Shown in pieces: positions 44,568-58,080 of a stretch of DNA of 58,854 nucleotides. The translations under genes were made by a program, and so were the position numbers. This stretch comes from a virus, in the IMG/VR virus record IMGVR_UViG_3300042991_000497, positions 1 to 58,854 of that record; one strand, 5' to 3'. Below the pieces are notes generated by a model. It ran no database searches, was not told the origin of the DNA, and saw nothing but the letters and a program-made list of their open reading frames with translations. How positions within the stretch are numbered: the first letter of the stretch is position 1; each line of letters starts with the position of its first letter.

Positions 44568-44626
44568 GCTCTTACTGCAACACTTGTTGCACCCGCCACA
44601 GCCTTCAACTCACTGGAGACCCAATC

Positions 44627-44974
44627 GTGAAGCTCCCCACTCTCAAAATGCTCGTGAAAGCCTGCGCAGACCAGCGCGCCGGATTCAAGCGTCTCTTCGG
44701 CGAGTCCGTCGGGATCACCGAGGCCCTCTGCGTCGAGCACGCGCACTACAAAGCCACCGGGCCCGCCCGGGACGCACTTGACGAGGCCACCGCGCTGGTC
44801 TGGGCCGCGCACTACAAAGCCATCGCGCCGGCCCGGGACCCACTTGACGAGGCCTGCGCGACGGACCAAGTCGCTGCGTACCGCAGAGCCCTCGCTGCGG
44901 CTCAGGGCGCGTACCTCGAAGCCCACGCACGTGCGGTCGCTCAAGTCTTCGGCTCAACGGAGAACCAATCGTGA
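44627..44974 (+). CDS. 11-mer repeat family protein 1 (shortest member)
   Basis: A 115-residue protein. Residues 1-40 are the family N-terminus (MKLPTLKMLVKACADQRAGF, LFGESVGITEALCVEHA), but the usual DWAWAAEHLLAPAARDA segment after it is missing. About five 11-residue repeats of the type TA-x-A-R-A-A-Y-x-E follow, then the common C-terminus ending FGSTENQS. It starts with GTG and is preceded by an ACTGGAGACCCA ribosome region. GTGA overlap couples it to the next copy. No known family matched. Probably truncated by deletion in its N-domain. Confidence 0.75.
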   Translation: MKLPTLKMLVKACADQRAGFKRLFGESVGITEALCVEHAHYKATGPARDALDEATALVWAAHYKAIAPARDPLDEACATDQVAAYRRALAAAQGAYLEAHARAVAQVFGSTENQS

Positions 44975-45474
44975 AGCTCCTCACTCTCAAAATGCTCGTG
45001 AAAGCCGGCGCAGACCAGCGCGCCGAATTCGAGCGTCTCTTCGGCGAGTCCGTCGAAGTCACCGAGGCCCTCTGCGTCGAGCACGCGCAGGTCTTTGACT
45101 GGGCTTGGGCCGCCGAGCATCTGCTCGCCCCTGCGGCCCGGGACGCGTATGACGAGGCCATCGCGCCGGTCTGGGGCGCACTTGATGAGGCCACCGCGAC
45201 GGCCCGGATCGCATATGACGAGGCCATCGCGACGGCCTGGGCCGTGTATGGCGGGGCCATCGCACCGGCCCGGGACGCGTATCACGAAGCCACCGCGCCG
45301 ACCTGGGCCGCGTACCAAGCAGCCATCGCGCCGGCCCGGATCGCGCTCAACGAAGCCACCGCGACGGCCCGGGCCGCGCGCGACGAAGCCACCGCGACGG
45401 CCCAGGGCGCGTTCAGCGAAGCCCTCGCCCGCGCGTTCGCACAAGCCTTCAACTCAACGGAGAACCAATCGTGA
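44971..45474 (+). CDS. 11-mer repeat family protein 2
   Basis: A 167-residue member: conserved domain (MKLLTLKMLVKAGADQRAEF, LFGESVEVTEALCVEHAQVF, DWAWAAEHLLAPAARDA), then about nine 11-residue repeats (for example ATAPTWAAYQA and TATARAARDEA), then the shared FAQAFNSTENQS tail. The GTG start overlaps the previous stop. The GGAG ribosome site lies in the 3' end of the upstream gene, which may explain why the C-terminal sequence is so constant. Confidence 0.82.
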   Translation: MKLLTLKMLVKAGADQRAEFERLFGESVEVTEALCVEHAQVFDWAWAAEHLLAPAARDAYDEAIAPVWGALDEATATARIAYDEAIATAWAVYGGAIAPARDAYHEATAPTWAAYQAAIAPARIALNEATATARAARDEATATAQGAFSEALARAFAQAFNSTENQS

Positions 45475-46040
45475 AGCTCCTCCCTCTCATCGTGCTCACG
45501 AAAGCCCGCGCAGACCAGCGCGCCGGATTCAAGCGTCTCTTCGGCAAGTCCGTCGAAGTCACCGAAGCCATCTGCGTCGAGCACGCGCAGGTCTTCGACT
45601 GGGGTGGGGCCGCCGAGCACCTGCTCGCCCCTGCGGCCCGGGCCATGTATGACGAGGCCATCGCGCCGGCCTGGGGCGCACTTGATGAGGCCACCGCGAC
45701 GGCCCGGATCGCGTACCGCAAAGCCATCGCGCCGGCCCGGGCCGCGCTCAACAAAGCCACCGCGATGGCCTGGGCCACGTATCTCGAAGCCACCGCACCG
45801 GCCTGGGCCGCGCTCAACAAAGCCACCGCGCCGACCCGGGCCGCGTACCGCAAAGCCACCGCGCCGACCTGGGCCGCGTACCGCGCAGCCATCGCGCCGG
45901 CCCGGGCCGCGCTCAACGAAGCCACCGCGACGGCCCGGGCCGCGCTCAACAAAGCCACCGCGACGGCCCAGGGCGCGTTCAGCGAAGCCCTCGCCCGCGC
46001 GTTCGCACAAGCCTTCAACTCGACGGAGAACCAATTATGA
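45471..46040 (+). CDS. 11-mer repeat family protein 3
   Basis: A 189-residue member. The N-domain is slightly diverged (MKLLPLIVLTKARADQRAGF; DWGGAAEHLLAPAARAM). About eleven repeats alternate Trp and Arg after Ala-Pro-Ala or Ala-Thr-Ala, and the last end in FNSTENQL. It starts with GTG and overlaps both neighbours by 4 bp. Codon use is almost uniform GC-rich, so the 33-bp units are conserved at DNA level. Confidence 0.82.
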   Translation: MKLLPLIVLTKARADQRAGFKRLFGKSVEVTEAICVEHAQVFDWGGAAEHLLAPAARAMYDEAIAPAWGALDEATATARIAYRKAIAPARAALNKATAMAWATYLEATAPAWAALNKATAPTRAAYRKATAPTWAAYRAAIAPARAALNEATATARAALNKATATAQGAFSEALARAFAQAFNSTENQL

Positions 46041-46474
46041 AAACCCTCACTCTCAAAATGCTCGTGAAAGCCGGCGCGGGCCAGCGCGCCGAATTCAAGC
46101 GTCTCTTCGGTGAGTCCGTCGAGATCACCGAAGCCATCTGCGTCGAGCACGCGCAAGCTTTCTACTGGGGTGGGGCCGCCGAGCACCTGCTCGCCCCTGC
46201 GGCCCGGGCCACGTATCGCGGAGCCACCGCACCGGCCCGGGCCACGTATCGCGAAGCCACCGCACCGGCCTGGGCCACGTATCGCGAAGCCACCGCGACG
46301 GCCTGGGCCGTGTATGGCGATGCCATCGCGCCGGCCCGGGCCGCGTGTCTCGAAGCCACCGCGCCGGCCTGGGCCACGTATCTCGAAGCCACCGCGCCGG
46401 CCCGTGCTGCGTATAGCGAAGCCCTCGCCCGCGCGTTCGCGCAAGCCTTCAACTCGACGGAGAACCAATCATGA
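46037..46474 (+). CDS. 11-mer repeat family protein 4
   Basis: A 145-residue member with the family domain ending FYWGGAAEHLLAPAARAT and about seven repeats. The ATG start here replaces the GTG of the first three members and the N-terminus becomes MKTLTLKMLVKAGAG, which is shared with several later members. Coupled on both sides by ATGA overlaps. Confidence 0.82.
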   Translation: MKTLTLKMLVKAGAGQRAEFKRLFGESVEITEAICVEHAQAFYWGGAAEHLLAPAARATYRGATAPARATYREATAPAWATYREATATAWAVYGDAIAPARAACLEATAPAWATYLEATAPARAAYSEALARAFAQAFNSTENQS

Positions 46475-47079
46475 AAACCCTCACTCTCAAAATGCTCGTG
46501 AAAGCCGGCGCGGGCCAGTGCGCCGAATTCGAGCGTCTCTTCGGCAAGTCCGTCGAAGTCACCGAGGCCCTCTGCGTCGAGCACGCGCAAGCTTTCTACT
46601 GGGGTGGGGCCGCCGAACACCTGCTCACGCCTGCGGCCCGGGCCACGTATCGCGAAGCCATCGCGCCGGCCTGGGCCACGTATCGCGAAGCCACCGCGCC
46701 GGCCTGGGCCGCGTATCTCGCAGCCATCGCGCCGGCCCGGGCCGTGTATGACGAGGCCACCGCGACGGGCTGGGCCGCGTTCAACGAAGCCATCGCGCCG
46801 GCCCGGGCCGCGCTCAACGAAGCCACCGCGACGGCCCGGGCTGCGTTCAACAAAGCCACCGCGACGGCCCGGGCTGCGTTCAACAAAGCCATCGCGCCGG
46901 CCCGGGCCGCGCTCAACGAAGCCATCGCGCAGGCCTGGGCCGCGTATGACGAGGCCATCGCGCCGGCCCGGGCCGCATTTGACGAGGCCCAAGCCCGCGC
47001 GTTCGCTCGCGCTTACGCCCTAACCCCTAACCCCAAACGTAAAGGAACCGACACCACCATGAAAGCCGTGATTAGCTGA
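46471..47079 (+). CDS. 11-mer repeat family protein 5, read-through C-terminus
   Basis: A 202-residue member with about twelve repeats. It lacks the FAQAFNSTENQS end. After FARAYALTPNPKRKG it runs through a segment that looks like an old intergenic ribosome site and start (GGAACC then ATGAAAGCC) and stops at 47079. This suggests a lost stop codon or fusion with the start of a decayed gene. It ends the first unbroken run of five coupled copies. Confidence 0.78.
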   Translation: MKTLTLKMLVKAGAGQCAEFERLFGKSVEVTEALCVEHAQAFYWGGAAEHLLTPAARATYREAIAPAWATYREATAPAWAAYLAAIAPARAVYDEATATGWAAFNEAIAPARAALNEATATARAAFNKATATARAAFNKAIAPARAALNEAIAQAWAAYDEAIAPARAAFDEAQARAFARAYALTPNPKRKGTDTTMKAVIS

Positions 47080-47198
47080 CCCCACAGCCGCGCGAGAGAC
47101 CTTGACGGGGGCGCGCCATTGCCGTCGCAGCGGGCGCCCTTGACGATTCTGACTTGATCGAAGCCTGACCCTCTAACCTCAACCGTAAAGGCCACAAA
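47080..47198 (+). other. short spacer, possible remnant of a decayed gene
   Basis: No supported gene. The last 21 bases of family gene 5 (from 47059) read ATGAAAGCCGTGATTAGC, like the start of another protein, and the bases after its stop keep coding-like composition for about 60 bp before new stops. A CTAACCTCAACCGTAAAGG leader, repeated in type elsewhere in this operon, precedes the next gene. Confidence 0.3.
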
Positions 47199-47588
47199 AT
47201 GAACTTCCCCTCAATCAACATCGGCGACGAGCTGACCTGCGCCGAAACAGGAAAGCAATTCATCGCCGCACCGCAAGGCTGCACATTCAACTACGCGCGC
47301 ACACTCGCGGGCGAAATACTCAGTGATGATGGCGCGAGCATTCGCGAGAAACGCGCCCTTCTCGACCGCGCTTCGCCTTTTTACTGCTATGTATCCGGCG
47401 ACGCCCTGCACGTCACGGATTGGAAAGGCAACACGCTGGGGCGGGTATCTGAATACCGCGAGAGTCGAAATGGGTTTCACCGCTCGACGATCGCCAGGTT
47501 CCGTGTACGCGACGTGCACGGGCAACTGTGGTCTGGCCGCGGTCCGGGCCGCAGTATGTGTTGTGTTTTGCGTGCCATGAAGGGGTAA
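47199..47588 (+). CDS. hypothetical protein between repeat-family genes
   Basis: A 129-residue protein, unlike the repeat family in sequence: a GDELTCAETGKQFIAAPQGC start with a Cys pair that may bind metal, and a middle LHVTDWKGNTLGRVSEYRES strand region. The last residues, VLRAMKG, and the following bases through the next start are nearly identical to the end of the gene at 48663-48809, so a cassette end was copied. Function unknown. Confidence 0.6.
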   Translation: MNFPSINIGDELTCAETGKQFIAAPQGCTFNYARTLAGEILSDDGASIREKRALLDRASPFYCYVSGDALHVTDWKGNTLGRVSEYRESRNGFHRSTIARFRVRDVHGQLWSGRGPGRSMCCVLRAMKG

Positions 47589-47594
47589 CCAATC

Positions 47595-48089
47595 ATGAAA
47601 ACCCTCACTCTCAAAATGCTCGTGAAAGCGGAAGCCCGCGCGGGCCAGCGCCGCGCATTTGTCCGCCTTTTCGGCGAGTCCGTCGATGTCACCGAGGCCC
47701 TCTGCGTCGAGCACGCACGGGTTTTTGACTGGGACGGGGCCGCCGAGCATCTGCTCGCCCCTGCGGCCCGGGCCGCGTACAACGCAGCCACCGCGAGGGC
47801 CTGGGCCGCGCTCAAAAAAGCCACCGCGCCGGCCCGGGCCGCGTATGGCGAGGCCACCGCGCCGGCCTGGGCCGTGTACAGCGCAGCCACCGCGAGGGCC
47901 CGGATCGCGCATGACGAGGCCACCGCGACGGTCCGGGCCGCACTTGACGAGGCCATCGCGCTGGCCTGGGCCGCGCTCACCGAAGCCATCGCGACGGCCC
48001 GGGCCGCGTACCGCGCAGCCATCGCGCCGGCCCGGGCCGCGTACCTCGAAGCCCAAGCCCGCACGTTCGCACAAGCATTCAACCTCTAA
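47595..48089 (+). CDS. 11-mer repeat family protein 6
   Basis: A 164-residue member (MKTLTLKMLVKAEARAGQRR; FGESVDVTEALCVEHARVF; DWDGAAEHLLAPAARAA) with about nine repeats. Its stop codon lies in the first unit of the TAACCTC array, so it lacks the FNSTENQS tail. It begins after a 6-bp spacer with an AAGGGG ribosome site that is shared with family gene 7. Confidence 0.8.
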   Translation: MKTLTLKMLVKAEARAGQRRAFVRLFGESVDVTEALCVEHARVFDWDGAAEHLLAPAARAAYNAATARAWAALKKATAPARAAYGEATAPAWAVYSAATARARIAHDEATATVRAALDEAIALAWAALTEAIATARAAYRAAIAPARAAYLEAQARTFAQAFNL

Positions 48090-48145
48090 CCTCTAACCTC
48101 TAACCTCTAACCTCTAACCTCTAACCTCTAACCTCTAACCTCTAA
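48081..48145 (+). repeat. 7-bp tandem repeat (TAACCTC), about nine copies
   Basis: A perfect heptanucleotide array in the gap between family gene 6 and the 48166 gene. Related single units (CTAACCCCTAACC and CTAACCTCAA) precede other genes of this operon. The array begins inside the stop codon of family gene 6. It resembles telomeric repeats only superficially. Confidence 0.92.
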
Positions 48146-48165
48146 CGCTCCCTAACACCCACGCC

Positions 48166-48636
48166 ATGAGCACCCCCACCATGAACACCCCCACCATGAA
48201 CACCCCCACCATGAACACCCCGAAGACAGAAACGGAACAATTCGAGCACCACGCAGCACGCGCGTTTTTCGCGAGCGCCTGGGCCGACGCGTGCGAAGAA
48301 GCCGGGAGCGGGGATATCCTTTCGGGGCAAAAAATAATGAACATCATGCCTGTCACTATCGACCCCGCGGCTACCCATGCCGCCCGCATTCTGCGAATGG
48401 ATATCGAGCGCGTCAATGGCCAGACCATCCCTCAGTTGTTGGCTTTCGTGGCGTCGGCTGCCGCAGGCGACCGCGCACCGACGGCCGAATTCTTTGGCCA
48501 CTACGCCGCGATGCGAGCAATGGGGCATGGTGTCGGTCTGCGAGACGCATTCGGTGCCGAAGTCGACGCGGCTATCTCTGTGCCCTCCGTCGAGTTCGGT
48601 TCGCACTCACTGCAGCGCGACTACTTCGTTCTCTAA
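48166..48636 (+). CDS. hypothetical protein with repeated N-terminal pentapeptide
   Basis: A 156-residue protein. The first 19 residues are four units of Pro-Thr-Met-Asn-Thr type encoded by a 15-bp tandem repeat, each with its own ATG; the start is therefore uncertain. The remainder is a compact helical domain (HHAARAFFASAWADACEEAG, MDIERVNGQTIPQLLAFVAS, GHYAAMRAMGHGVGLRDAFG) that I have the impression of having seen in other phage and plasmid proteins of unknown function. Confidence 0.6.
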   Translation: MSTPTMNTPTMNTPTMNTPKTETEQFEHHAARAFFASAWADACEEAGSGDILSGQKIMNIMPVTIDPAATHAARILRMDIERVNGQTIPQLLAFVASAAAGDRAPTAEFFGHYAAMRAMGHGVGLRDAFGAEVDAAISVPSVEFGSHSLQRDYFVL

Positions 48637-48662
48637 CCCCTAACCTCAAACATCAACCCGCT

Positions 48663-48809
48663 ATGTCCTACCATCAATTTGCCGCCGCTTACTTCCACGC
48701 CGGCCGTGCCTGGGCTATCGCCTGTGCAATCGAGTTCGGTGTACCCCTCTTCACCACACTGTGCTACGTGCGCAAAATATGCGCGACCGAGCGTGCCATG
48801 AAGGGGTAA
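48663..48809 (+). CDS. small hypothetical protein
   Basis: A 48-residue protein, MSYHQFAAAYFHAGRAW through ICATERAMKG, with a weakly hydrophobic middle (AIACAIEFGVPLFTTL) that may be a membrane helix. The end RAMKG and the following ribosome site match the end of the 47199 gene, which suggests duplication of that cassette with family genes 6 and 7. The ATG is preceded by a CTAACCTCAAACATC leader typical of this operon. Confidence 0.5.
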   Translation: MSYHQFAAAYFHAGRAWAIACAIEFGVPLFTTLCYVRKICATERAMKG

Positions 48810-48815
48810 CCAATC

Positions 48816-49256
48816 ATGAAAATCACCCACCCAATGCTCGTGAAAGCGAAAGCCTGCGCGGGCCCGCGCGCCGAATTCAAGCGTCTCTTCGGCAAGTCCG
48901 TCGAAGTCACCGAGGCCCTCTGCGTCGAGCACGTGCAAGTTTTTGACTGGGGTGGGGCCGCCGAGCACCTGCTCGCCCCTGCGGCCCGGGCCGCGTATGA
49001 CGAGGCCACCGCGACGGCCTGGGCCACGTACAACGCAGCCATCGCGCCGGCCCGGGCCGCGTACAACGCAGCCACCGCGACGGCCCGTGCTGCGCTCAAC
49101 AAAGCCACCGCGATGGCCTGGGCCGCGTATCTCAAAGCCACCGCACCGGCCTGGGCCACGTATCTCGAAGCCACCGCACCGGCCTGGGCCACGTATCGCG
49201 AAGCCCGCGCACGTGCGTTCGCCCAAGCCTTCAACTCGACGGAGAACCAATCATGA
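48816..49256 (+). CDS. 11-mer repeat family protein 7
   Basis: A 146-residue member (MKITHPMLVKAKACAGPRAEF; DWGGAAEHLLAPAARAA) with about seven repeats and the full FAQAFNSTENQS tail. It starts after AAGGGGTAACCAATC, a leader identical to that of family gene 6, and is coupled to family gene 8 by ATGA. Confidence 0.82.
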   Translation: MKITHPMLVKAKACAGPRAEFKRLFGKSVEVTEALCVEHVQVFDWGGAAEHLLAPAARAAYDEATATAWATYNAAIAPARAAYNAATATARAALNKATAMAWAAYLKATAPAWATYLEATAPAWATYREARARAFAQAFNSTENQS

Positions 49257-50281
49257 AAACCCTCACTCTCAAAATGCTCGTGAAAGCGAAAGCCCGCGCA
49301 GACCAGCGCGCCGAATTCGAGCGCCTCTTCGGCAAGTCCGTCGAAGTCACCGAGGCCCTCTGCGTCGAGCACGCGCAGGTCTTTGACTGGGCTTGGGCCG
49401 CCGAACACCTGCTCGCCCCTGCGGCCCGGGACGCACTTGACGAGGCCTGCGCGACGGCCTGTGCCGCGTACAACGCAGCCATCGCGCCGGCCCGGGCCGC
49501 GTGTGGCGAGGCCATCGCGCCGGCCCGGGCCGCGTATGACGAGGCCACCGCGACGGCCTGGGCCACGTGCACCGCAGCCACCGCACCGGCCTGGGCCGCG
49601 TTCAGCGAAGCCACCGCGGCGGCCCGGGACGCACTTGACGAGGCCACCGCGACGGCCGGGGGCGCACTTGACGAGGCCTGCGCGACGGCCCGGGCCGCGT
49701 ATGACGAGGCCTGCGCGACGGCCCGGGGCGCGCTCAACGAAGCCACCGCGCCGGCCCGGGCCGCATTTGACGAGGCCCTCTGCGCCGAGCACGTGCCGGT
49801 CTTCGACTGGGCTTGGGCCGCCGAACACCTGCTCGCCCCTGCGGCCCGGGACGCACTTGACGAGGCCACCGCGACGGCCCGGGCCGCGTTCAGCGAAGCC
49901 ATCGCGCCGGCCCGGGCCGCGCTCAACGAAGCCACCGCGACGGCCTGGATCGCGTATGACGAGGCCACCGCACCGGCCCGGGCCGCGCATGGCGAGGCCA
50001 CCGCGACGGCCCGGGCCGTGTATGACGAGGCCACCGCGACGGCCCGGGCCGCACTTGACGAGGCCACCGCGACGGCCTGGGCCGCACTTGACGAGGCCTG
50101 CGCGCCGGCCCAGGCCTCGTATGGCGAGGCCATCGCGACGGCCCGGGCCGCGTACACCGCAGCCACCGCGACGGCCCGGGCCGCATATGACGAAGTCATC
50201 GTGCCGGCCCTGGCCACGTACAGCACAGCCCTCGCCCGCGCGTTCGCACAAGCATTCAACTCAACGGAGACCCAATCATGA
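49253..50281 (+). CDS. 11-mer repeat family protein 8, longest member with internal duplication
   Basis: A 342-residue member. After the normal N-domain (DWAWAAEHLLAPAARDALDE) come about ten repeats. Then a second copy of the domain end appears near residue 176 (LCAEHVPVFDWAWAAEHLLAPA), followed by about thirteen more repeats and the FAQAFNSTETQS tail. This is a fusion of two members or an unequal-crossover product. Repeats often read TATARAALDEA, TATAGGALDEA or CATARAAYDEA. It is the strongest evidence that the array recombines. Confidence 0.82.
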   Translation: MKTLTLKMLVKAKARADQRAEFERLFGKSVEVTEALCVEHAQVFDWAWAAEHLLAPAARDALDEACATACAAYNAAIAPARAACGEAIAPARAAYDEATATAWATCTAATAPAWAAFSEATAAARDALDEATATAGGALDEACATARAAYDEACATARGALNEATAPARAAFDEALCAEHVPVFDWAWAAEHLLAPAARDALDEATATARAAFSEAIAPARAALNEATATAWIAYDEATAPARAAHGEATATARAVYDEATATARAALDEATATAWAALDEACAPAQASYGEAIATARAAYTAATATARAAYDEVIVPALATYSTALARAFAQAFNSTETQS

Positions 50282-50853
50282 ACACCCTCACTCTCAGTGT
50301 GCTCCCGAAAACGAAAGCCTGCGCGGGCCAGCGGGCCAAATTCGCCCGACTTTTCGGCGAGTCCGTCGAGATCACCGAAGCCATCTGCGTCGAGCACGCG
50401 CAGGTCTTCGACTGGCCGGGGGCGGCCGACTATCTACTCACGCCTGCGGCCCAGGCCGTGTATGGCGAAGCCAGCGCGCCGGCCTGGGCCACGTATCGCG
50501 AAGCCACCGCGACGGCCCGGATCACGGACCGCAAAGCCATCGCGGCTGCCTGGGTCGCGCACGGCGTAGCCACCGGGCCGGCCTGGGCCACGTACCGCAA
50601 AGCCTGCGCGGCGGCGCGGGCCGCGTACCTTGAAGCCACCGGGCCGGCCTGGGCCACGTACCGCAAAGCCACCGCGCCGGCCCGGGCCGCGCTCAACGAA
50701 GCCACCGCGACGGCCCGGGCTGCGTTCAACAAAACCACCGCGACGGCCCGGGCTGCGTTCAACAAAACCACCGCGCCGGCCCGGGCCGCGCTCAACGAAG
50801 TCCGCGCACGTGCGTTCGCTCAAGCCTTCAACTCACTGGAAAACCAATCATGA
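50278..50853 (+). CDS. 11-mer repeat family protein 9
   Basis: A 191-residue member. The N-domain is the most diverged (MNTLTLSVLPKTKACAGQRAKF; DWPGAADYLLTPAAQAV). About ten repeats follow, two of them identical TTATARAAFNK-type units, ending FAQAFNSLENQS. Last family member. Its stop overlaps the start of a small ribbon-helix-helix-like gene (ATGA), so that protein is made from the same mRNA. Confidence 0.82.
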   Translation: MNTLTLSVLPKTKACAGQRAKFARLFGESVEITEAICVEHAQVFDWPGAADYLLTPAAQAVYGEASAPAWATYREATATARITDRKAIAAAWVAHGVATGPAWATYRKACAAARAAYLEATGPAWATYRKATAPARAALNEATATARAAFNKTTATARAAFNKTTAPARAALNEVRARAFAQAFNSLENQS

Positions 50854-51014
50854 AGAAGCCCCAAAAGCAACACCGCCCCACAACACGCGCGCCACACGGA
50901 GAGCAACGATTTCCGACGCGCATCGCGGCATGTGTGACCCCCGAGCAGAAACGCAAGTTCCATCGGCGTGGTGGGAGTGCCTGGCTGCGCGGATTGATTC
51001 AGGCAGCCCCCTAA
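50850..51014 (+). CDS. small ribbon-helix-helix-like protein
   Basis: A 54-residue basic protein. A strand-like RFPTRIAACVTPEQKRKF followed by GGSAWLRGLIQAA strongly resembles small phage and plasmid ribbon-helix-helix or Arc-type DNA-binding proteins, whose second helix commonly reads GGSAWLR. Its ATG overlaps the stop of family gene 9. It may regulate the repeat-family operon from its far end. Confidence 0.6.
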   Translation: MKKPQKQHRPTTRAPHGEQRFPTRIAACVTPEQKRKFHRRGGSAWLRGLIQAAP

Positions 51015-51657: not shown

Positions 51658-51709
51658 CTACTCAGGGGTGACAGGGGTGACAGGGGTGACAGGGGTGACA
51701 GGGGTGGCA
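51458..51709. repeat. iteron cluster and AT-rich tract, replication origin candidate
   Basis: Nine perfect copies of the 9-bp unit GGGGTGACA occur: two inverted at 51458-51475, two direct at 51590-51607, one inverted at 51643-51651 and four direct at 51665-51700, plus a degenerate GGGGTGGCA at 51701. A degenerate inverted copy precedes 51486. An AT-rich segment lies at 51548-51585 between the two blocks. The last units encode the repeated Thr-Pro-Val end of the VapE protein. The arrangement is like iteron-type origins. Confidence 0.6.
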
Positions 51710-53619
51710 AGGGCTGTGCGCTCCCAGCGCCACGCCCGTTTGCCGTCTACGCGCCGCTGCCCGCTGCGCTCATACCCCAACGCGCGCAGCACCGCCCCGG
51801 CGCGCATTTGCACCCGCGCATCCATGTCCTTCGCCGCAACCCCGAGAGCACCCATGAGTACATCGGCAACCGTGAAAGGTGATTCGTCCCTCGCCCTCCC
51901 CCTCCCCCTGGACACGTCACCCGCCCGCCCCAATCCGTCACACCCGCCCAGCCATTCGGCGAATGGCCCTTCCCACTCATCGTGCCGTGTGTAGCCCCCA
52001 TGCTCGGCCTTGGCCAGCTCTTCGGCGCGCTGCCATGCCACACCCCCTACCCAATCCCCGCCTTCGGGGCCGTGCCCGGGGTCGACGGGCTTAACCGCGC
52101 CACGGAACAGCGCCGCGCCTTCGGCCCACAGTTGTTCACGCAAGCGCGCCACCTCGTCGGACTTCGCCCAGCGCACGTGTAGTGGCAGCCACCGACGATT
52201 GCCAGTCTCGTCGCTTAGCAGGTCGGTGCGGTTGGTCGTACCAACGAGCAAGCAACGCCGAGGGAACGTCGTCGCGAATTCCTTGAACTTCGGCACCCAC
52301 TTTTCGTGCGTCCGTGAAACCCACGCCTTGATCGACTCTTGATCTTTCGTGTGCAAGCCGCGCAACTCGTTGATTTCACCAACAAGCACCCCGCGCAGCG
52401 TTCGCGCAAGCGTGTCGTCGTCCTTGTTGAGATCGACTTCGGCGTAAAACAGCGGGTCTGGCACCATTGCCTTCAGGCTTTTCGTTTTACCCTCACCTTG
52501 GCCCCCTTCCAGGATCACGGCCATATCGGCCTGCACCCCCGGCTGTATGACCCGCCCGGCGAGCGCAGTCCAGATGTAGAGGCTGACAGCGCGTGCATAG
52601 GGGGTGTCAGCCGCGCCGAAGAGGTCGGTCAAGAAACGTTCGACCCGGCGCGCACCATCCCAGCTCGCTTCGACTTCCGCAAGCCACAGCTGGGCGCTGT
52701 CGAACTGGTTCTCCTCTGCGACCAGAATCGCCGCATCGCGGGCCAGCTCTTTCGGCGCGCTCTTGAACTTGCGTTTTTCGATCTCGATGCGCAAGCGCAC
52801 AAGATCCGCATCGCGCATCGGGCGCCATTGCTGCACCGCGCCAGCGGGCTGCACCATCATCTCGTCGCGGAACGTGTCATGCCCGATCTGCATGCCGGCT
52901 TCCCACTCGTCACTGAACGCGCGCACCACGTTCTCGACCGTCGGCGCTACGTAACCCTGCTTGTCGCGGGGGTGGTACGCCGGGGGCTCATATGTGGCCG
53001 GCCGCTCGCGGCCGCCGACGCCAGAAGCGGCGCCAGAAGCGCCAACAGCACCCCGCGCGGGGGCAGTAGCCACCCAGCCAGAAAAATCGCCTGTAGGCCC
53101 GGTTTGGGGGGTTGGCAAGGCCACAGACTGAGGGCCCGCCGCTCGCCCGCGCGCAGCTGCGGCCCCTTCCAACTCAAAGCCATCCACGTCCGGCACGCCC
53201 GCCGTCGCCGGGTTGGCCCAACCGGCCGCGCCTGCGGCTTTGAACAGCGTCGCGGCCGTGATGCCCCCGGCCCGGTTCTGGTCGGCGTAGACCCAAACTT
53301 TCTCTTCGGCGTAACCCGGCACGTGTTTTGAGCTGCGCTCGCTCCACGCCTCGAACTTGGCCAGCCCCTCCGCGCTCCCGCCCGTAGCCCAGTGCACGGC
53401 GTAAGCCAGATCACGCCAACTGTCGTAGCCCACCTCCTCGCCGGTGTTGGGGATCGCGTCCAGCGCGGCCCACAACGTCGGTAGCTCGGTGTCCGGTAGA
53501 CCCGGCGCCCGCGCCGCGTGCTCGACCACGGGCCGCGCGGCACGCGGCACGCCGGGAGACACGCGCCAGAAGCCGGGGGCGAGGATGGCTTCGCGAGGGA
53601 GAACGTGGAGTGTCACCAT
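51658..53619 (-). CDS. VapE-type helicase with PriCT-like primase C-terminal domain
   Basis: A 653-residue protein. Residues about 50-130 resemble the PriCT-2 module (IPNTGEEVGYDSWRDLAYAVHW, EKVWVYADQNRAGGITAATL). A Pro/Gly-rich linker follows, then a VapE/D5-like AAA+ domain with Walker A ILEGGQGEGKTKS near 370, Walker B VGEINELRG near 410 and sensor LLVGTTNRTDLLSDETGNRRW near 450. The C-terminal tail repeats Thr-Pro-Val because the gene ends in the iteron array. It probably unwinds DNA at the origin with the primase gene just upstream (overlap 7 bp). Confidence 0.82.
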   Translation of the reverse strand: MVTLHVLPREAILAPGFWRVSPGVPRAARPVVEHAARAPGLPDTELPTLWAALDAIPNTGEEVGYDSWRDLAYAVHWATGGSAEGLAKFEAWSERSSKHVPGYAEEKVWVYADQNRAGGITAATLFKAAGAAGWANPATAGVPDVDGFELEGAAAARGRAAGPQSVALPTPQTGPTGDFSGWVATAPARGAVGASGAASGVGGRERPATYEPPAYHPRDKQGYVAPTVENVVRAFSDEWEAGMQIGHDTFRDEMMVQPAGAVQQWRPMRDADLVRLRIEIEKRKFKSAPKELARDAAILVAEENQFDSAQLWLAEVEASWDGARRVERFLTDLFGAADTPYARAVSLYIWTALAGRVIQPGVQADMAVILEGGQGEGKTKSLKAMVPDPLFYAEVDLNKDDDTLARTLRGVLVGEINELRGLHTKDQESIKAWVSRTHEKWVPKFKEFATTFPRRCLLVGTTNRTDLLSDETGNRRWLPLHVRWAKSDEVARLREQLWAEGAALFRGAVKPVDPGHGPEGGDWVGGVAWQRAEELAKAEHGGYTRHDEWEGPFAEWLGGCDGLGRAGDVSRGRGRARDESPFTVADVLMGALGVAAKDMDARVQMRAGAVLRALGYERSGQRRVDGKRAWRWERTALATPVTPVTPVTPVTPE

Positions 53620-56195: not shown

Positions 56196-56435
56196 ATGAA
56201 AACTCTCGTGCGTGAAGGGCCGACGCTGTTGCTTGGCGCGTTCATCGTCCTCGCGGCGTTGAAGGTGCTGGGCTATACCGACTGGTCGTGGTTGGCGGTA
56301 TGTGCACCACTGTTGCTTCCTACCGTGCCCGCTTCGGTGTTGGTTGTTTTCGTCGTCTTCAGGTTTGCGTACTGGGTATCGGTGGGGGCTGTCGAGATCA
56401 CATTCAACGAACTTTCAGATTGGCTCAAAAAATGA
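56196..56435 (+). CDS. small membrane protein
   Basis: A 79-residue protein with two hydrophobic segments (about residues 10-28 and 31-62) and an acidic amphipathic C-terminus (EITFNELSDWLKK). It sits just upstream of the DUF2800 gene and overlaps its start by ATGA. Role unknown; it may recruit a replication protein to the membrane. Confidence 0.6.
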   Translation: MKTLVREGPTLLLGAFIVLAALKVLGYTDWSWLAVCAPLLLPTVPASVLVVFVVFRFAYWVSVGAVEITFNELSDWLKK

Positions 56436-57241
56436 CTCTCATGCAAACGTCAACGCCCGTCGTACTGCACGAAGACGCGCACGCGCGGCTGAGCCCGAGC
56501 GGGTCGAAGAAATGGTTCGCGTGCCCGGGGTCGTTGACCTTGGAAGAACCGATCCCGAACGAAGCCAGCAGCTATTCGGACGCAGGCACAGCGATGCACG
56601 ATATCGCAGCCCGCTGTCTCACCGAGCATCGCCGGGCGGCTCACTATGTCGGCGGGTACGTCGTCGTGAGCCCGCCGCACGAGATCGAACAGCGCAAAGT
56701 CGAGTTCGACGCCGAGATGGCTGAGCTGGCACAGGGCTACGTCGACGCGATGCGATTCCAGGCCCTCGGCGCCACCGCACACTGGGTCGAGCAGCGCGTC
56801 GACTTCTCCGAGTTTTGCGGCGTGCCCAAGCAATTCGGCACGGCCGACTTCATCGTCTTGGATGAGCGAGGGGGCGCGGTGTGGGTGAGCGATCTGAAGA
56901 CTGGCTACAAGCCGGTCGATGTGCGCAAGAACACACAGCTGATGATCTACGCGCTGGGCGCGCTGGCCAAACTGCGCGATGAAGACATAGCCAACCTGCG
57001 GGAAGACGAAGACGAAGACGAAGCCAACCTGCGGGAAGACGAAACTGCCGAAGACGAAGACGAAGACGAAGACGAAGACGAAGACGAAGACGAAGACGAA
57101 GACGAAGACGAAGACGAAGACGAAGACGAAGACGAAGCCAACCTGCGGGAAGACGAAACTGCCGAAGACGAAGACGAAGACGAAGACGAAGCCAACCTGC
57201 GGGAAGACGAAATCGCCGAAGACGAAGAGGAATTGTTCTGA
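56432..57241 (+). CDS. DUF2800-type nuclease, N-terminal part
   Basis: A 269-residue protein. RLSPSGSKKWFACPGSLTLE with Cys31, then SYSDAGTAMHDIAARCL, QYVDAMR-like helices, FGTADFIVLDER (Asp) and VWVSDLKTGYKPVD (Asp-x-Lys) give the PD-(D/E)xK nuclease core of DUF2800 proteins. After QLMIYALGALAKL the sequence departs into Arg-Glu-Asp and Glu-Asp repeats and ends. The rest of the family fold, including three further cysteines, is encoded by the next gene. The acidic run seems to have split one gene into two. The stop overlaps the next ATG by one base. Confidence 0.82.
   Translation: MTLMQTSTPVVLHEDAHARLSPSGSKKWFACPGSLTLEEPIPNEASSYSDAGTAMHDIAARCLTEHRRAAHYVGGYVVVSPPHEIEQRKVEFDAEMAELAQGYVDAMRFQALGATAHWVEQRVDFSEFCGVPKQFGTADFIVLDERGGAVWVSDLKTGYKPVDVRKNTQLMIYALGALAKLRDEDIANLREDEDEDEANLREDETAEDEDEDEDEDEDEDEDEDEDEDEDEDEDEANLREDETAEDEDEDEDEANLREDEIAEDEEELF
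57002..57228 (+). repeat. GAAGAC hexamer repeat coding for Glu-Asp, interrupted by NLREDE units
   Basis: Several blocks of the 6-bp unit GAAGAC, the longest with about 14-15 copies (57050-57137), separated by copies of a longer unit coding ANLREDE(T/I)AEDE. It encodes the acidic tail of the N-terminal DUF2800 half, and such runs are prone to slippage. Confidence 0.95.
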
Positions 57242-58080
57242 TGGGCGCCACAACGAAAGAAAACCCATTCACTTGGGCACGCCGCAAGGGCATCAAGACC
57301 ATCGTGCTGGGGGTGTACCAACCCAAAGCCGACGGCCACACCGAAGACGCTGTCAGCCTCGACGAGCTGGAGGCGTTTTCGGTCGAGTTGCGCGAGAAGG
57401 CCGCCAGGGTGGAAGCCGCCAAAGCGGATCGCGGCGTGATGCCGGACGAGAAGTGGGAGCGCATCTACCTCAACCCGACACCGAATGCAGAAGAGTGCGC
57501 GTTTTGCCGGGCCATGCCGACGTGCCCATCCGCGAATCGAACGCTGGGGGCATTCATGCTCGACGGCTTCGGCGCGGTGGAAGAAGGGAAAGCGCCGGCC
57601 CCCCGTGAGCTTGATTCCGTTGGGTTGCCGCTGCTGAACAGGCTAATGCACCAGGCGCCCTTCGTCGAGGACATGATTCTTGCGGTGCGCGCCGAAGTTG
57701 AGCGCCGGTTACTGGCCGGCGAAGAGTTGGCGGACTTCGGGCTGGATACAGGCCGACTCGGCGCTCGCAAGTTCAAGGACGCAGAGGAAGCTGAGCAACT
57801 TCTCAACAAACAAATGCGGCTCTCGAAAGACATGATTTACAACTTCAAGTTGAAGACCCCTACGCAGCTCGAAGAGCTGACCAAACCGGGCGAAGGTGGC
57901 GAGGCCCCCGTGCTTGGCGATACGCGGTGGAAACGCGTCTGCGCACTCGTGACGCGGAACGACCCGAAGCCGACGGTCAAGCTCAAAAGCAAGATCAAGA
58001 AGCCCTACGCCCTCCCGACACCAACGGCCGAGGGTTTCGAGGCGCACGCCACGCCACACCGAGCCGACGAGCTTTTTTGA
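57241..58080 (+). CDS. DUF2800-type nuclease, C-terminal part
   Basis: A 279-residue protein that continues the DUF2800 fold: GIKTIVLGVYQPKADG, SLDELEAFSVELREKAARV, then NPTPNAEECAFCRAMPTC, whose Cys-x2-Cys-x5-Cys completes an iron-sulphur cluster with Cys31 of the upstream protein. Beyond it is a helical region (RHQ-free, with LLNKQMRLSKDMIYNFKLKT) and a Lys-rich tail. It has no catalytic core of its own, so it would need to pair with the upstream product. It starts at ATG 57241, overlapping the upstream stop by 1 bp. Confidence 0.82.
   Translation: MGATTKENPFTWARRKGIKTIVLGVYQPKADGHTEDAVSLDELEAFSVELREKAARVEAAKADRGVMPDEKWERIYLNPTPNAEECAFCRAMPTCPSANRTLGAFMLDGFGAVEEGKAPAPRELDSVGLPLLNRLMHQAPFVEDMILAVRAEVERRLLAGEELADFGLDTGRLGARKFKDAEEAEQLLNKQMRLSKDMIYNFKLKTPTQLEELTKPGEGGEAPVLGDTRWKRVCALVTRNDPKPTVKLKSKIKKPYALPTPTAEGFEAHATPHRADELF

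Follow-up and report, generated by a model that had tools for sequence, protein, structure and literature searches.

The gene ydhT of Escherichia coli is part of the FNR-activated ydhYVWXUT operon, for which a published listing predicts an oxidoreductase system (PMC3688515). In E. coli chromosomes the listed matches carry the annotation ydhT, and 5,367 of 5,426 genomes contain a match, yet a literature search for the function of YdhT found no paper assigning one. Here we describe nine tandem genes in the IMG/VR virus record IMGVR_UViG_3300042991_000497 (58,854 bases, analysed at its full length and called the window below), whose products join a head domain to tails of 11-residue (hendecad) repeats. 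They constitute a new branch, marked by hendecad tails and tandem amplification, within a broader and uncharacterised superfamily of head-plus-repeat proteins to which YdhT also belongs. An apparent orphan phage family is thereby tied to the head domain of a near-universal E. coli protein. What would pass as a low-complexity hypothetical protein becomes a testable modular family with a constant head and an exchangeable tail, to which ydhT offers a laboratory entry point.

The operon and its head domain

The nine intact paralogues (44627-50853, plus strand) were called as open reading frames (ORFs) in agreement with a hidden Markov model (HMM) of the head, and Tandem Repeats Finder detected 33-nt arrays in all nine. 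The original prediction of nine tandem genes with a common head and Ala-rich 11-residue repeats is thus borne out. A typical paralogue consists of a head of ~55 residues, 3-23 units and a conserved C-cap, which reads ARAFAQAFNSTENQS in most copies; the predicted range of about 5 to over 20 units holds at its upper end (23), the lower end being 3. The predicted head motifs are present as described, with the qualification that the head of gene 1 is truncated and its tail degenerate and that gene 8 contains a second, partial head. Coupling of most genes through ATGA or GTGA overlaps, with the ribosome site inside the preceding gene, was found at six of the eight junctions between paralogues, as foreseen. 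GTGA joins genes 1-2 and 2-3, ATGA joins genes 3-4, 4-5, 7-8 and 8-9, and a further ATGA links gene 9 to a 54-aa ORF. Paralogues 6 and 7 are without overlap, each being preceded by an unrelated ORF (three such ORFs lie within the paralogue interval, Table 1) that ends in a common TAACCAATCATG joint.

The linker CAACTCaacGGAGAaCCAATC-(A/G)TG encodes the six final residues of the C-cap (STENQS C-terminus) and also holds the ribosome site of the next gene. Copies are found ahead of gene 1, as a remnant, and ahead of the 54-aa ORF downstream of gene 9. Since the linker recurs at these places just as it does between paralogues, the unit of amplification is linker plus gene. The leader of gene 1 is probably the remnant tail end of an upstream paralogue that has since been lost.

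The 33-nt repeats are GC-rich and other frames are therefore also open, so that the coding frame needed testing. Differences among the paralogue heads (eight intact and the truncated one) number 126, 69 and 231 at codon positions 1, 2 and 3, and pairwise comparison of the paralogues gave a proportion of synonymous differences (pS) of 0.238 and of nonsynonymous differences (pN) of 0.080, that is, purifying selection. Because this selection acts on the head in the annotated frame, the frame is coding. Frame 2, which would read PRRPGPRxTxP and in which the repeat variation looks synonymous, was ruled out by the frame-1 evolution of the head and by stops in L011 (one of the related contigs described below) and others; in most relatives one alternative frame has a stop in nearly every unit.

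AlphaFold2 modelled the head alone with a predicted local distance difference test score (pLDDT) of 87. Paralogue 4, from an 18-sequence alignment, reached a mean pLDDT of 90, with strands at residues 2-5 and 27-30 and helices at 6-12, 14-24, 32-37 and 44-51. These models support the view that the head is a small alpha/beta domain. Sequence searches of Pfam, PHROGs and PDB found no relatives of the head, a PDB fold search with the head model gave no match at E under 1, and the best VIA-align Z was 2.2. The best BFVD match (A0A8S5UXY4, probability 0.89, E 0.37) is not relied on, and Pfam matches at E 0.001-0.7 (Sec23_helical, FIVAR, ATP-synt_B) and an NCBIfam FloT match for the relative L019 were below cut-off and arose from the Ala-rich repeats.

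The bridge to a wider head family began with a prophage-type sequence used as a lead only, and all later comparisons were made on real records. Proteins beginning ITxxxLxxxxACxxGxxxF are encoded by Methanosarcina virus MetMV, Edwardsiella phage GF-2, phiKX1, E. coli (YdhT), a fecal phage, 9NA and a Vibrio phage, and twelve IMG/VR loci also carry the YdhT-type head (some are the same phages). When an alignment of the window family's head (A6) was compared by hhalign with two alignments of the wide head set, the result was 87.6% with a score of 32.6 for A7 (maximum of 200 column shuffles 16.3) and 94.7%, P 6.3e-8, with a score of 39.7 for A9 (maximum of 200 column shuffles 16.2), the alignment spanning only the first ~40 columns of the head. 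The window paralogues alone gave 78.5% (P 1.7e-5), and YdhT as a single sequence gave no profile signal with the window head; YdhT joins the superfamily through GF-2 and phiKX1, both of which are matched by the NCBIfam model 'protein YdhT'. These comparisons support distant homology of the window head to the YdhT-type head, and hence membership of a wide superfamily. The YdhT model NF007410 of NCBIfam (cut-off 300 bits) did not match window genes 3 and 8, the two tested, and gave 488 bits for the control L059; the 8-residue SGxxARIGS tail together with the YdhT C-terminal region is not found in the window proteins.

The suggestion of a possible undescribed system therefore stands as far as the lack of an assigned function goes, but the head is not free of relatives, given its distant homology to YdhT and to phage hypothetical proteins. 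Homology of the head to a characterised family, which was to count against the original prediction, was looked for and did not emerge, since we found no characterisation of YdhT or its kin.

Viral relatives and the repeat tails

IMG/VR scans with a head profile, confirmed by HMM, identified about ten more viral contigs with the same head. They are mostly unrelated otherwise, and besides the family genes tblastn matched only the L025 terminase and two L022 replication genes to the window. These phages combine the same head with differing hendecads (TAPAWAEYERV, TGPAWAEYNRV, MAPAWAAYDAA, LAPALAEYERT), often in tandem. The family gene is present in two or three copies in several of them, a lower bound because many matches reach contig ends, where short-read assembly probably breaks in the arrays; ATGA or GTGA joins neighbouring copies in the viruses of L012, L019 and L024. 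Ala-4 is conserved in 78 of 85 units of the relatives and Tyr-8 in 75, Val or Ala is also kept at residue 11, and 71 of these units have W, L or R at residue 5. The design thus recurs in other viruses and is not peculiar to a single genome. At the level of sequence it comprises a conserved coding head, a hendecad tail, a C-cap and a joint with a ribosome site, and the viruses sharing it are mostly unrelated. No relative was found by tblastn in INPHARED, a search limited by the BLAST low-complexity filter (weak matches at E 2-6 were unrelated on inspection), in plasmids, or in pattern-seeded scans of GTDB genome contigs, which do not prove absence.

From the nine window genes, 83 full 33-nt units could be extracted in register, 73 of them distinct as peptides; the tails end in ARAFAQAFN. 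Two units of the same gene resemble each other more than units of different genes do (permutation P 0.005), and the resemblance is greatest between neighbours, which indicates that local duplication enlarges the arrays. Of the 83 units 52 have T as residue 1, and in relatives this residue is T, R, K, N, V, L or M. Type I antifreeze proteins carry an invariant Thr every 11 residues along an Ala helix, a pattern not seen in the window units. The predicted hendecad geometry agrees with the 33-nt units in every gene and with the AlphaFold2 model of paralogue 4, in which the tail is a single helix from residue 54 to 144 (~90 residues). At 11 residues to every three turns, one face would be formed by residues 4, 8, 11 and 1 and a neighbouring one by residues 1, 5 and 9. 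The model supports a stripe of Ala-4, aromatic-8 and Ala- or Val-11 that would suit helix-helix packing, with the variable residues (chiefly 1, 3, 5 and 9) on the remaining surface.

The repeats had been likened to LEA group 3, apolipoprotein and synuclein proteins, and the 11-residue period and the one continuous predicted helix would fit amphipathic membrane- or lipid-binding helices of that kind. Pro is frequent in apolipoprotein repeats and common in those of the window as well. However, no Pfam match was obtained up to E = 1, and tails of very different chemistry occur in the wider head family. The hydrophobic moment at 98 degrees per residue is only 0.04-0.19 in the nine proteins (shuffled means 0.05-0.11), mostly above the shuffled value but in several proteins within about one standard deviation of it. 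This weak moment, together with a net charge of the repeat part between about -22 (gene 8) and +9.5 (gene 9), argues against lipid binding; the proposed likeness is not supported, and we regard this explanation as very unlikely.

In contrast to the heads, the window units are least variable at the third codon position, with pS 0.184 and pN 0.264 (pairwise pN/pS 1.44). Among units pN exceeds pS in all eight viruses compared, the window and seven relatives, with pS 0.007 and pN 0.094 in L011. At residues 2, 4, 6 and 11 of the unit the two are about equal (pN 0.104, pS 0.111), and at residues 1, 3, 5 and 7-10 pN is 0.347 and pS 0.235. These values, the alternation of residue 5 between W, R and L in independent viruses and the high share of unique units are what would be expected of specificity arrays under diversifying selection, whose variable residues touch a variable partner (a defence protein, a surface or a nucleic acid) and of which the nine genes form a repertoire. 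However, when each distinct codon change was counted once the ratio became neutral (15 synonymous changes against 17.3 expected in the window, 37.7 against 37.1 in relatives), and neutral coalescent simulations of unconstrained repeats gave P values that ranged singly from 0.05 to 0.37 and came to 0.058 when combined. Repeat turnover under relaxed constraint accounts for the data almost equally well, and specificity arrays appear unlikely. Strong positive selection, for which the pairwise pN/pS looked decisive, is not established by these counts and simulations. What can safely be said is that the tails escape the constraint acting on the heads, and there is a hint that their diversity is maintained. 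We give rather little credence to the more specific idea that a constant YdhT-like head presents the arrays, with residues 1, 3, 5 and 9 as an evolvable recognition surface against variable host factors and with diversity kept by selection and unit shuffling.

Two further explanations bear on the same variation. Tails without net purifying constraint, and units most alike within a gene and when adjacent, as local duplication predicts, could reflect a minisatellite-like expansion of DNA yielding tails with little protein function, and further simple tandem arrays lie nearby (48081-48146 and 48154-48221). Against this, the frame is intact in nine of nine genes, heads, C-caps and joints are conserved, and Ala-4, aromatic-8 and Ala/Val-11 are retained across viruses despite differing codons, which leaves the explanation doubtful. 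The NNC/NNG-type variation, in which third codon positions hardly vary in L011 and seldom change in L019, resembles that of targets of a diversity-generating retroelement. Such an origin is largely refuted and retains a negligible chance: the reverse transcriptase PF00078 was found in none of 11 records (the window and ten related ones, some of them fragments) although controls were detected, and the variants are not confined to template adenines.

Possible role of the operon

We tentatively favour the reading that the operon encodes tandemly amplified, translationally coupled head-plus-rod proteins that act on the host, inside the cell, as early or accessory products. Across the superfamily the head is fused to short-repeat tails of at least four distinct chemistries (SGxxARIGS, ADAAYAA, IKAGxx and hendecads), and because it stays constant while the chemistry of the tail changes, the head is the likelier carrier of a specific function. 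Function or target binding would reside in this constant part, and the tail would serve as a spacer or oligomerisation rod that can be swapped for another and that drifts in length and charge as units are gained and lost. The nine variants would be made together, early or as accessory proteins. We infer, indirectly, that they serve host takeover or counter-defence by acting on a host factor, and are probably neither components of the virion nor helices that bind lipid. Such a role is favoured because the wide family is found in early or accessory surroundings: the GF-2 homologue lies beside N in the CIII region, that of phiKX1 beside an antirepressor, and that of 9NA beside TerL on the opposite strand. 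In the window the setting is likewise accessory, the plus-strand operon (44.6-51.4 kb) being bounded by the terminase genes on one side and the primase-helicase on the other. The question raised is why one phage keeps nine differing rods in one coupled operon.

That the proteins are instead fibres, tail components or internal rods of the virion is in our estimation not probable. The rods are long, the repeats of the GF-2 relative resemble collagen-like tail fibres in PHROGs, the operon starts ~1.1 kb from the small terminase gene, and a protein of the same head type but lacking repeats (L009:9926-10231) lies among another phage's virion genes, where its role may bear on the ancestral function. 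The virion genes of the window (matches to head-tail adaptor/portal, internal virion protein and DNA-ejection proteins, and both terminase subunits) are, however, mostly on the minus strand and the operon is transcribed away from them; the replication genes are mostly on the plus strand, apart from the primase-helicase (51.6-54.2 kb, minus). Moreover, the GF-2, phiKX1 and 9NA homologues lie outside the virion module, and nine short variants per genome would be unusual for a fibre.

Several points besides the L009 protein weigh against host-acting head-plus-rod proteins. To our knowledge no member of the family has an experimentally known function. PADLOC gave no defence match for the five window proteins tested, although it omits counter-defence proteins, and a clear sigma-70 promoter was looked for and not found, so that early expression rests on position. 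AlphaFold is prone to long single helices on Ala-rich repeats, and the Pro in many units could kink or break the helix. The broad spread of charge among the paralogues may also oppose one shared rod function.

Layout of the locus and comparison with known systems

Table 1. Coordinates of the paralogues and associated features in the window
Feature	Position	Strand	Description
Leader of gene 1	44597..44626	+	CAGCCTTCAACTCACTGGAGACCCAATC; built like the inter-paralogue linkers; carries ribosome site
Paralogue 1	44627..44974	+	115 aa, GTG start; truncated head, short degenerate tail, C-cap
Paralogue 2	44971..45474	+	167 aa, GTG start; head, 33-nt array 45134-45423; GTGA overlap with gene 1
Paralogue 3	45471..46040	+	189 aa, GTG start; head, array 45634-45989; GTGA overlap
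Paralogue 4	46037..46474	+	145 aa; head, array 46200-46423; ATGA overlap; AlphaFold helix 54-144
Paralogue 5	46471..47079	+	202 aa; head, array 46634-46976; C-terminus diverged; ATGA overlap
Unrelated ORF in operon	47199..47588	+	129 aa; 3' end GTGCCATGAAGGGGTAACCAATCATGAAA common to ORF 48663-48809
Paralogue 6	47595..48089	+	164 aa; head, array 47764-48053
Unrelated ORF	48166..48636	+	156 aa; match to phrog_15314 (unknown function)
Small unrelated ORF ahead of paralogue 7	48663..48809	+	48 aa; 3' joint as in 47199-47588
Paralogue 7	48816..49256	+	146 aa; head, array 48982-49205
Paralogue 8	49253..50281	+	342 aa; head, long array 49422-50220; repeat part strongly acidic, net charge about -22
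Second, partial head within paralogue 8	49772..49873	+	EALCAEHVPVFDWAWAAEHLLAPAAR
Paralogue 9	50278..50853	+	191 aa; head most diverged, array 50447-50787, basic tail
ORF after paralogue 9	50850..51014	+	54 aa; ATGA overlap, ribosome site inside 3' end of paralogue 9

Some further repeats and genes were observed in the window. Just 3' of paralogue 6 lies a perfect 7-bp tandem array (AACCTCT, 9.4 copies, 48081-48146), and the spacers around it are generally CTAACC-rich. A 15-bp array, AACACCCCCACCATG (48154-48221), creates four in-frame ATG starts (MSTPTMNTPTMNTPTMNTP) for the ORF at 48166-48636, the N-terminus of which is possibly slippage-variable. Outside the operon, a 9-bp array CAGGGGTGA (51663-51706) encodes the (VTP)n C-terminus of the primase-helicase ORF 51658-53619, and the exonuclease family phrog_69 is spread over two adjoining ORFs (56288-57241 and 57241-58080, together 56288-58080).

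Other short-repeat proteins cluster with the family in its relatives. Pentapeptide-repeat genes occur near it in three loci, just upstream (L012:8738-9460, L021:8519-9127, L010:4116-4838; confirmed by Pfam for L012 and L021), and share a DNLPHILxEHRKWLxGEGG-like N-terminus. In L022 (862-1518, 1-363) the two family genes flank a DUF7666 protein and a further Ala-rich protein lies upstream, the clustered short-repeat proteins being unrelated. Like the window proteins, pentapeptide-repeat (PF00805) and DUF7666 (PF24703) phage proteins consist of a short N-terminal part and short-period repeats; no relation of their N-terminal parts to the window head was seen, the two not having been compared directly.

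The 11-mers of LEA group 3, apolipoprotein and synuclein share the 11-residue helical period with the window proteins, which differ from them in having an extra globular head, no profile match and weak amphipathicity. Closer are Salmonella phage 9NA gp10 and MetMV AZF89938 (the latter with weak Imm5-like similarity), which have the same head type and an Ala-rich, probably helical repeat tail; their tails are, however, of the ADAAYAA type, without the hendecad T-A-P-A-W pattern, and one copy was seen. YdhT, the 'collagen-like protein' of GF-2 and the phiKX1 ydhT product are alike in an N-terminal head of ~55 residues ([IL]T...L...GAC..G...F..F), and YdhT-type and window tails are both built from short tandem repeats in which some residues vary and the rest form a fixed frame. 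In L058-L074, the YdhT-type and fecal-phage tails vary at fixed unit positions (SGNDARIG, SGYYAQIG, SGDSARIG), and this arrangement may be general to the head superfamily. The YdhT type differs in having 8-residue SGxxARIGS repeats followed by a C-terminal domain, encoded by single genes, whereas the window family is distinguished by hendecad helices, by FGxSVxVTEALC...FxWxWAAxxLL in the head and by its tandem, multi-copy operons.

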